From the IMG/VR virus record IMGVR_UViG_3300031963_000016, positions 1 through 64,000 of that record: a DNA stretch of 64,000 nt. One strand, 5' to 3'. The notes beneath the pieces are model-generated. The model saw only the letters and a list, made by a program, of their open reading frames with translations. It did no database searches and was not told the DNA's origin. Numbering within the stretch: the stretch's first letter is position 1; each line of letters opens with the position of its first letter. A program made the position numbers and the translations under genes. Below are positions 35,958 to 57,816 of the stretch, piece after piece. Source of the DNA: a virus.

Positions 35958-36240
35958 AGAAAAAATCTGCCCAAAGTGCCAAGCCAAGCATAATAAGCGT
36001 GGTGAGTTCTGCTCTCGTAGCTGTGGTAATACACGAAAGCACACGAAGGAAACGAAACAGAAAATCGCTGATGCACAACGAGCATACCTGACTAGTGGCA
36101 CTGAACCTGCTGAAGTCGCCAAGCATAACTTTATCTCTAAGCGTAATAATGGTGATCCTGATCCGATTCCACCGATGAAACCGATTGATCTCGGTAGTGG
36201 GCGATTTGTTCAAGATGGTGATATTTGGGAAGAAGCCTAA
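35947..36240 (+). CDS. Zinc-knuckle protein with NUMOD3-like motif
   Basis: 97 residues. KICPKCQAKHNKRGEFCSRSCGN binds metal by CxxC...CxxxC; it is followed by KHTKETKQKIADAQRAYL, which resembles the NUMOD3 DNA-binding repeat of homing endonucleases. No catalytic domain follows, so this may be a stand-alone DNA binder or a homing-nuclease remnant. Confidence 0.6.
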   Translation: MAYKEKICPKCQAKHNKRGEFCSRSCGNTRKHTKETKQKIADAQRAYLTSGTEPAEVAKHNFISKRNNGDPDPIPPMKPIDLGSGRFVQDGDIWEEA

Positions 36241-55167: not shown

Positions 55168-55199
55168 AAAGGGGATCGAAAGATCCCCTTTTGTTTTTT
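55168..55199 (+). terminator. Intrinsic terminator of gp32
   Basis: AAAGGGGATC / GATCCCCTTT with a GAAA tetraloop and a T-rich tail. Lies between convergent genes; the tail overlaps the stop of the minus-strand gp29. Confidence 0.93.
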
Positions 55200-56913
55200 A
55201 GAAAGCGAATCTATTTCGATCTCTTTCGTATCTTTCTAATGATGATTCTTGATTTCTTATATTTGCTTTAATATAATTGTTTTGATTGTTATTTACAGGA
55301 GCATTAACTACAGCATTGTTAGAAGATCTAACTTGTGGTGTCATTGCTCTAATCTTTGCTTCTTCTGAAGCAGCTGATGCAGAAGAAACTTGTGTGGCTG
55401 TTCTTGGTGGTTCAACTGGTTTTGCTACTGCTGGAACAGCTACTACTGGCGATGTAGTTGGAGCAGCTGTCGCTGGCGCAGGAGCAGCTTCTACAGCTGG
55501 AGCAGGTTTTTCTTTGAAACCAAAGAAACCTTTTAATTTACTCATTGTAGAACCAGTTTTTGGTGGTTCCTGTACGACAGCAGCAGAAGGCGATTCTTCT
55601 GGAGAAACTACACCACTGTAATCAACAACTCGTGGTTCTTGGCGTTGGGCAGGTTTAACTGGAGCTGTTTCTTCTTTCTTATCATCGCCAAATCCAAAGA
55701 AAGATTTAACTTTATCAAGTTTATCTTTAAACCATTTAGAAATAGCAGAAGAAATTTCTGTGACTTGATTTGAAATACTAGTAATAACATCACTAATAGA
55801 CCAACCATTCCACCATTCAATAATACCATCTTTTAATTTACCAAAACCAGTTACTACACTTCCAATAGATTCTGTAATAAATGTTGTTATCTTTCCCCAC
55901 AGTTCATCCCAATTGAAAGATTCCCATAGTTCTATCGCTTTGTCACGTATCCAAATAAATGGTTTTGCTAGATTATCAATCATGTTACTAAACATTGTCT
56001 CAAAGGAGAATGATTTTAATGCTTCTTCTGCCTTATCAAACCCAAATACTCCAAGCACCCAAGCAATAGCATTTTTTAACATGTCTAATGGTGCAAAAAT
56101 TAATGAATTAAAGAAACCTTTAACTGCACCCATAACACCACCAATAATTCCACCATCTTCAAATCCAGCTATAAATCCTTTTACCGTATCCCATAAAGTC
56201 ATGATAACTGTAAATGGAATTGCTAATTTTGAAAATATTTTAACAGCACCTCCGAATATTTTCATAAACTCATCACCCCATGCAGCAACTGTGGAGAAAA
56301 ATGATTTAACCTTTCCTACCATATCCATAACAAAATCGATACCTCTTCCTACTGCAGCAGAACCATCTTTTATTAGATCTGCTCCCTTTGCAATTGGTGC
56401 GAAGAATTTTGATATACCATCTTTTAAAGAGGTTATCATTTTACCGATTGTAGAACCCTCATCAAAAACAAAAAGACTTTTAATCTTGGCAAATCCTTTA
56501 GCAATAAGATCTCCTATTTTACCAAAGAAATCGACAATAGCATCAAAGCCAGTTTTAATTGCGGCGATCCACTTTTCTGGCAATAATACTTTAGCAAGTT
56601 TACCCAGAAGAGTTACATATCCTTTAATATAACCAACAATTGCACCTAAAGCCACTGCTAACATAGTGCCAAGTGCGCCAATGCCAAAATCACCACCAGC
56701 AGGTTTTGCACTTTTTGCAGCACCACCTATAGCTCCAGCTGTATTCTTTTCAATTTTTACAAGAAGTTCGATCATCTTGTCTTGACGTCTTTGATTCTCT
56801 AAATCATTTTCTTTAGATGAAGTTGGGGGTGTTACATTTGCTGGGGTGAGTCTAGCATCATTCGCTGCTATCATCGACCTTTGTGCTTGTAAAAGTGCTG
56901 CCATTTGCGCCAT
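55198..56913 (-). CDS. 29: Tail tape measure protein (gp29-like)
   Basis: 571 residues (T4 gp29 590). Long, mostly helical, with hydrophobic stretches (GIGALGTMLAVALGAIVGYIKGY), Phe/Lys-rich repeats such as KVKSFFS, and a proline/alanine-rich linker near residues 430-510. Begins one base after the gp51 frame and follows the gp26 chaperone, the conserved place of a tape measure. It sets tail length and occupies the tube lumen. Confidence 0.85.
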   Translation of the reverse strand: MAQMAALLQAQRSMIAANDARLTPANVTPPTSSKENDLENQRRQDKMIELLVKIEKNTAGAIGGAAKSAKPAGGDFGIGALGTMLAVALGAIVGYIKGYVTLLGKLAKVLLPEKWIAAIKTGFDAIVDFFGKIGDLIAKGFAKIKSLFVFDEGSTIGKMITSLKDGISKFFAPIAKGADLIKDGSAAVGRGIDFVMDMVGKVKSFFSTVAAWGDEFMKIFGGAVKIFSKLAIPFTVIMTLWDTVKGFIAGFEDGGIIGGVMGAVKGFFNSLIFAPLDMLKNAIAWVLGVFGFDKAEEALKSFSFETMFSNMIDNLAKPFIWIRDKAIELWESFNWDELWGKITTFITESIGSVVTGFGKLKDGIIEWWNGWSISDVITSISNQVTEISSAISKWFKDKLDKVKSFFGFGDDKKEETAPVKPAQRQEPRVVDYSGVVSPEESPSAAVVQEPPKTGSTMSKLKGFFGFKEKPAPAVEAAPAPATAAPTTSPVVAVPAVAKPVEPPRTATQVSSASAASEEAKIRAMTPQVRSSNNAVVNAPVNNNQNNYIKANIRNQESSLERYERDRNRFAF

Positions 56914-56914
56914 A

Positions 56915-57091
56915 TTAGCGTTCCATTCTTTTCTTTTCTTCTTCTAAATGTCTAATTAGTAGGTAGATATAGATCTCTCTCTCAAATGGTATCATATTTT
57001 CAATATCTTCTAGTGTATATTTATGGTATTGCATCAATGAAAAGTTTAATTCATAATAATTAGATAAAGTATCATGAGAGAGAGCTATCAA
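56915..57091 (-). CDS. 51: gp51-like baseplate hub/tape-measure chaperone extension, -1 frame of gp26
   Basis: 58 codons if read from the TTG overlapping the gp26 stop; contains LSHDTLSNYYELNFSLMQYHKYTLEDIENMIPFEREIYIYLL (in blocks), typical of the gp51 hub-assembly protein of T4-like aquatic phages. No good start codon: the first ATG would give only 39 residues. Expected to be translated by frameshift from gp26. Confidence 0.75.
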   Translation of the reverse strand: MIALSHDTLSNYYELNFSLMQYHKYTLEDIENMIPFEREIYIYLLIRHLEEEKKRMER

Positions 57092-57112
57092 AAAAAACTA
57101 TCTAGACCCTCC
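57088..57112 (-). promoter_or_regulatory. Candidate -1 ribosomal frameshift site
   Basis: On the minus strand, Shine-Dalgarno-like GGAGGG (57112-57107), 9 bases, then eight T (57097-57090) ending in the gp26 stop TGA. Slippery T-TTT-TTT would move ribosomes into the gp51 frame. Layout matches dnaX-type stimulatory SD plus slippery run. Confidence 0.7.
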
Positions 57113-57816
57113 AGTTTAACCTCGTTATATTTACTACAGACTGGACAATTAAAATGTAGTTTGTGAGATAATTTGGGCATAGTTTCAAAAAACTTCTGCA
57201 GTTTTTCAAATTGTTCTGCGGTTAGATTATCAATAAACTCTTTAACTTCCGCTTTGGTCTGATCTTTAATAGGATATATTTCGTCATTATCATAGATGTA
57301 ATCCATAGATTCTGCAATTATATCAAAGACTAAACTAGCGTCATTATTTTTAACATTTTGAAACTTTGTTAGAGTTTCTAGTGATGGATATTTCATAACA
57401 ACCCCAACATCATTAAATAAAGGAATTTTATTTGTATGTTCTTTGGATTGTTCTACTTTAATGTCATCAATATTAATTTTTACATTTACTGTTGCTTTTT
57501 TATTTGCCTCTTCGGAACCATGTTCTTCTGGACATTTCAAAACTAACTCAATTTCCTCCCCAACAGATTTTGCTCTAAGCTGAAGAAAAATATATTCCAT
57601 ATCAAATAAAGATAAAGATTCGATATCAATTGTAGAAGTTACAGAAGATTTAATAATACTCTTTAGAGTATCCATCATTACCATAACATTCTCACTCTGT
57701 TGAGCGATTAAAAGTGCTTTTTGCTCTTTTACTAGAAATGGTCTAAATTTGATAGTTTCTTTAGTAGAAGGAACAACTAGATTGTACGTTGGTGTACTAT
57801 TTACTGGTAAAGCCAT
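57088..57816 (-). CDS. 26: gp26-like baseplate hub / tape-measure chaperone
   Basis: 242 residues. IKFRPFLVKEQKALLIAQQSE near the start is typical of T4-like gp26; FLQLRAKSVGEEIELVLKCPE and a C-terminal FNCPVCSKYNEV CxxC pair may bind zinc. Gene 16 ends at its ATG. Its C-terminus runs into the slippery T run before gp51. Confidence 0.87.
   Translation of the reverse strand: MALPVNSTPTYNLVVPSTKETIKFRPFLVKEQKALLIAQQSENVMVMMDTLKSIIKSSVTSTIDIESLSLFDMEYIFLQLRAKSVGEEIELVLKCPEEHGSEEANKKATVNVKINIDDIKVEQSKEHTNKIPLFNDVGVVMKYPSLETLTKFQNVKNNDASLVFDIIAESMDYIYDNDEIYPIKDQTKAEVKEFIDNLTAEQFEKLQKFFETMPKLSHKLHFNCPVCSKYNEVKLEGLDSFF

Follow-up and report, generated by a model that had tools for sequence, protein, structure and literature searches.

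A very probable programmed -1 ribosomal frameshift joins gp26 and gp51 in the tail assembly chaperone gene of a T4-like virus

Is gp51 a gene of its own, or is it the C-terminal part of a protein that ribosomes begin in gp26 and complete after a change of reading frame? This question is raised by a junction upstream of the tape measure gene in the IMG/VR virus record IMGVR_UViG_3300031963_000016, of which we analyzed positions 1 to 64,000 (the whole stretch of 64,000 nucleotides is referred to here as the window). A first-pass annotation had proposed that a programmed -1 frameshift fuses the two frames. Our analysis indicates that the locus is, with very high probability, a tail assembly chaperone (TAC) gene with a programmed -1 ribosomal frameshift. 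The features on which this assignment is built are compiled in Table 1.

Table 1. Features of the gp26/gp51 junction and its surroundings in the window
Feature	Position	Strand	Basis
gp26-like ORF, 242 aa, short tail assembly chaperone form (TAC-N)	57088..57816	-	PF12322, phrog_150, AF2 model
GGAGGG, putative Shine-Dalgarno (SD)-like 5' stimulator	57107..57112	-	direct reading, enrichment in homologues, spacing
Slippery heptamer T TTT TTT, before TGA	57091..57097	-	direct reading; in-phase T TTT TTN at 177/195 loci
gp51 -1 extension, 60 codons + TAA, C-terminal part of TAC-NC	56915..57097	-	phrog_634, phrog_150, open frame, constraint
ORF of 571 aa for the tape measure protein, directly 3'	55198..56913	-	phrog_167 (E 3e-8); position like that in other TAC-TMP pairs

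Read on the minus strand, the gp26-like frame ends in CTG GAG GGT CTA GAT AGT TTT TTT TGA, just as the first-pass annotation had described it, with gp51 lying in the -1 frame. Direct reading places a run of eight T's (T8) at 57097-57090, which is divided in the zero frame among AGT (57099-57097), TTT (57096-57094), TTT (57093-57091) and the TGA stop (57090-57088). Tandem -1 slippage requires the phase X XXY YYZ, which the heptamer T TTT TTT has; the TGA follows it directly, and a spacer of 9 nt separates GGAGGG from the T8 run. In the -1 frame the sequence reads FFLIALSHDTLSNYYELNFSLMQ... and remains open for 60 codons (57097-56918) up to a TAA (56917-56915), just past which the tape measure ORF begins with an ATG at 56913. 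The predicted gp26-gp51 fusion has 242 + 58 = 300 residues, in agreement with the size of about 300 residues that had been proposed for it, and the ORF adjoining it is indeed related to tape measure proteins (phrog_167).

Runs of at least eight T's occur once, and runs of at least eight A's twice, on the plus strand of the 64 kb. Among 17 in-frame T TTT TTN sites in window ORFs of at least 100 codons, the gp26 site is the only one that combines an adjacent stop codon, a -1 extension of more than 40 codons and an SD-like element. An in-frame T TTT TTC at 35964 on the minus strand is located 81 nt before the stop codon of its ORF and is associated with a 54-codon -1 frame, without an SD-like element.

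Alignment of gp26 and gp51 across related phages, which had been suggested as a check, revealed that the slippery site is widely conserved. An in-phase T TTT TTN was present at the end of gp26, 0-6 nt before the stop codon, in 177 of the 195 homologous loci that possess a complete gp26 3' end (127 TTTTTTC, 43 TTTTTTT, 5 TTTTTTA and 2 TTTTTTG); this is the unselected figure, and further related-locus queries from phages phi-Grn1 and Cr30 added almost no new loci. The heptamer was also found in the Straboviridae (Aeh1, the KVP40-type phage phi-Grn1, and AS-szw), in pelagiphage HTVC008M, in phiN3 and Cr30, and in the Pootjesviridae. All 85 representatives (less than 80% identity) carry the NNT TTT context, compared to about 40% per locus predicted from pooled codon usage, although the formal probability of this conservation is overstated because the representatives were taken from loci having the slip site and the null model ignores shared ancestry. 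The Rhizobium phages AF3 and RHph_N34 (L093, L095) have T TTT TTG as slip site, and their zero frame ends in F-L-H.

The 18 loci without the heptamer comprise 16 of the Kuttervirus type, Vibrio phage K474 and Stenotrophomonas phage IME-SM1 (L091). The latter was dropped as a counterexample because its sequence is 1 nt shorter than its sister records (L214), a difference that brings the annotated gp26 into the third frame and that is probably a homopolymer sequencing error. Since such errors are common, as IME-SM1 may illustrate, one could ask if the window itself contains one continuous ORF that was split when the T run was missequenced or misassembled. We assign this explanation next to no probability: the two-frame layout is kept in another IMG/VR contig (L004; its gp26 is identical, and the contig possibly derives from the same population), and it is shared by many divergent loci, including those of isolate genomes, so that the error hypothesis is refuted by independent genomes.

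The GGAGGG upstream of the slippery run, which the first-pass annotation had compared with the stimulator of dnaX, also has counterparts across the family. Where a Glu-Gly pair is encoded upstream of the heptamer, Glu is specified by GAG in 50 of 70 cases, compared to 28% in the remainder of the gene (p = 6e-14, a value that ignores shared ancestry), and the gap between the SD-like element and the heptamer is fixed at 8-9 nt in 76 of the 85 representatives. These data also bear on the possibility that gp51 is brought into frame by transcriptional slippage at the eight T's instead of by a ribosomal frameshift. Eight T's are generally sufficient for some slippage by RNA polymerase; however, 62 of the 85 representatives possess only six T's with the heptamer phase unchanged, and an SD-like element works on ribosomes and not on the polymerase. 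Transcriptional slippage is thus a very improbable explanation of the layout.

A potential contribution of downstream RNA structure was assessed family-wide by synonymous-codon shuffling. Excess structure was confined to segments starting at the slip site, with mean z values of -1.46 at +0..+45 and -1.22 at +15..+60, about 0 farther on, and -0.1 to -0.5 within gp26. The signal is significant across the family and reaches its maximum in marine cyanophages (z -2.66). In these, a 5-bp hairpin, GGTCC-AYAT-GGACC, is located about 10 nt past the heptamer (L001, L047, L139-L200 and others; alignment A4, columns 18-31). Its GGTCC/GGACC stem covaries, with 36 double-changed cells compared to 5.2 +/- 2.7 in shuffles of the 65 sequences. 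Judged by this covariation, the cyanophage hairpin is a candidate 3' frameshift stimulator that is absent from the clade of the window. Because downstream structure in the window itself was not significant (z -0.6) and RNAalifold found no consensus 3' hairpin for its clade, we claim no such part for the window.

If ribosomes did not enter gp51 from gp26, they would have to initiate within it. The sole start candidate near the junction of the window is a TTG (57091-57089) that is situated within the T run, overlaps the gp26 stop codon and has GGAGGG 15 nt away; the first ATG of the -1 frame (57034-57032) lies 21 codons inside the conserved domain. The earlier view that gp51 lacks a credible start codon is borne out by this arrangement. 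Nevertheless, gp51 could be a separate small gene that is translated by stop-start coupling, or by reinitiation at the TTG or a non-AUG codon by the gp26 stop. The overlap of the TTG with this stop codon is in keeping with such a scheme, as is the annotation of gp51 as its own gene in many public records (it is unannotated in others), and the Ackermannviridae and Vibrio phage K474 indeed possess a TAATG overlap without the heptamer. Against it, most homologues with a T8 run have TTA where the window has TTG. While all of 83 representatives keep the -1 frame free of stop codons over 58-71 codons, its first ATG, GTG or TTG is at least 12 codons downstream, inside the conserved domain, in 32 of them, and only 1 of the 83 has an SD-like 4-mer ahead of its first candidate start. 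Moreover, the conserved phase of the heptamer would be needless for a separate gene, and T4 gp51 is a continuous fusion. Taken together, we consider separate initiation of gp51 in the window very unlikely.

The pattern of substitutions points to frameshifting as well. Over the 12 codons that follow the heptamer, related pairs of sequences differ in the -1 frame by 9704 synonymous and 5544 nonsynonymous single-base codon changes, a nonsynonymous-to-synonymous ratio of 0.57 compared to about 4.1 for random change, whereas the other two frames, with 2958/12273 and 1554/14998 synonymous/nonsynonymous changes, display no such bias. By this comparative measure, the -1 frame is under purifying selection right after the slip, upstream of usable start codons in many phages. 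Since this constraint precedes the usable starts, entry of translation from gp26 is its simplest reading, and the programmed -1 frameshift that had been proposed is well supported by the comparison of sequences. In the records of the Straboviridae phages Aeh1 and AS-szw (L085, L089), the gp51 extension is unannotated even though gp26 is followed by the heptamer and by a conserved -1 frame.

Both parts of the predicted fusion belong to known protein families. The gp26 of the window matches PF12322 with an E-value of 9.1e-63 (212.3 bits; gathering cut-off, 24.5) and positions 5-232 of the 282 positions of phrog_150 (E 6.3e-67). The gp51 extension matches positions 231-279 of phrog_150 and, with an E-value of 1.6e-25, phrog_634, a family annotated as 'baseplate hub assembly catalyst'. 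A sequence search for homologous solved structures found none. In the AF2 model of gp26 (pLDDT 89), residues 1-95 gave the best VIA-align matches to 3FGX (Z 7.8), 2OB9 (Z 7.5) and 3KLU (Z 7.4), with the next match at 5.4; these three proteins are phage tail assembly chaperones (PMC9603447). According to this model, the N-terminal domain of gp26 has the TAC fold, with the moderate Z of 7-8 possibly reflecting, by itself, a common arrangement; Foldseek returned an E-value of 1.8 for 2OB9. Because VIA-align with the model of a T4-type gp51 gave no match above Z 4.8, the structural support derives from the gp26 model of the window. The tail in the T4-type gp51 model adds three helices (206-248).

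Family membership and predicted fold support the equivalence with lambda G/GT and the role as a tape-measure chaperone that the first-pass annotation had put forward by analogy. In the mechanism that we propose, most ribosomes would terminate at the TGA and release gp26 as TAC-N. The upstream GGAGGG would pair with 16S rRNA during the slip, and a minority of ribosomes, in which both Phe-tRNAs move back by one base on T TTT TTT, would skip the stop codon and synthesize the TAC-NC fusion. If the analogy to lambda gpG/gpGT holds, the TAC domain coats the neighboring tape measure protein, a role taken by the abundant short form, and the helical C-terminal tail of the rare long form would recruit tail tube subunits. 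The conservation of the putative stimulators renders the efficiency of the frameshift, and hence the ratio of the chaperone forms, directly testable. Given that gp51 is unannotated or annotated as its own gene in many public genomes, the predicted 300-aa product has been missed there.

The first-pass annotation had named, as a finding that would speak against a frameshift, related phages in which gp51 is independent, has a strong start and lacks a slippery run. Such genes exist, but solely in a distant clade (the Ackermannviridae and some Vibrio phages) and in T4 itself, where gp51 is a full-length paralogue that contains both parts. T4 gp26 and T4 gp51 both match full-length PF12322 (T4 gp51 with an E-value of 3.9e-52); on phrog_150, T4 gp51 covers positions 13-280, whereas T4 gp26 covers only 14-235. 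BLASTP aligned residues 75-287 of the fusion to T4 gp51 (E 3e-9); the tail encoded by gp51, when used by itself, aligned to residues 200-244 of T4 gp51. On the strength of these matches, T4 gp26 is the counterpart of the short form and T4 gp51, a natural continuous fusion, that of the full fusion, and the two are paralogues; T4 would thus have replaced the frameshift by two genes. Some T4-like phages have likewise been described as possessing a short gene together with a long, fused one in place of frameshifting (PMC10885494). T4 gp51 is reported to be needed for assembly and to be absent from the particle (PMC3004832).

Two PF12322 copies, as separate genes on opposite strands, were present in four T4-clade genomes, compared to one copy in 14 others tested; the 161.7 kb record of the window likewise has a single copy. 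In a tree whose rooting is not established, T4 gp26 forms one group and T4 gp51 another, both of them separate from the single-copy genes; a single duplication on the T4 lineage could account for this topology. The Ackermannviridae and the Vibrio phages K474 and D506 are without the heptamer (L211:1547, L212:1544, L087:2723, L213:1331, L088:3744). Stop and start codons overlap as TAATG in Limestonevirus, Agtrevirus and K474/D506; the sequence in Kuttervirus is TAATT, from which gp51 may start at AUU there. We tentatively suggest, at slightly below even odds, that the family has kept a dnaX-like multi-part cassette whose 3' stem-loop was gained or lost by clade, and that the frameshift was replaced twice, by duplication in the T4 clade and by a stop-start overlap giving separate C-terminal subunits in the Ackermannviridae and K474/D506. 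If true, nature would have provided, in the two replacements, an experiment on why two forms of the chaperone are required at a fixed ratio for tails. The site is retained by marine and freshwater T4-like phages and by several enteric or soil ones, so that the frameshift appears to be used across the wider family of T4, and T4 looks like a derived exception.

The gp26/gp51 proteins of T4-like phages, which fall into the same protein family as those of the window (PF12322/phrog_150/phrog_634), were reportedly identified as tail assembly chaperones by Vladimirov, Gautam and Davidson in 2022 (Virology 566:9-15). T4 has separate, divergent genes for the short and the long form, whereas the window and most of its relatives possess one gene with a slip site. 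In later papers, Vladimirov et al. 2022 are credited with poly-T -1 frameshift signals in T4-like TAC-N genes (PMC12846349) and with the variant made up of two genes (PMC10885494). The poly-T TAC frameshift is therefore already known for T4-like phages, and the locus studied here is a new example of it. The quantified SD-like element, the covarying cyanophage 3' hairpin and the clade with the stop-start overlap are possibly new; neither the SD-like element nor the hairpin nor the Ackermannviridae exception was described in the papers that we searched, although Vladimirov et al. 2022 may contain them.

Three further systems are suited for comparison with the junction of the window. In the dnaX cassette of Escherichia coli, an SD-like GGAGGG is positioned about 9-10 nt ahead of the homopolymeric heptamer A AAA AAG. 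The window resembles it in its GGAGGG, the 9 nt spacing and the X XXY YYZ heptamer, but it differs in using a T run without a significant 3' hairpin (its cyanophage relatives have one) and in that its predicted product is an extension, while that of dnaX is a truncation. In the Vandenendeviridae and Andersonviridae, a poly-T tract near the 3' end of TAC-N is likewise accompanied by a -1 frame that is open and conserved ahead of the tape measure gene (PMC12846349); these are other phage families with a GTTTTT motif, and the likeness is one of arrangement. The same applies to lambda gpG/gpGT, where the short chaperone gene, located ahead of the tape measure gene, has a -1 frameshift at its 3' end that gives a minor longer product (PMC5009743), whereas in the window the slip site T TTT TTT adjoins the stop codon and is accompanied by an SD-like element. 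In the lambda model, the tape measure protein is coated by the abundant short form, and the tube subunit is recruited by the rare long form (PMC5009743).
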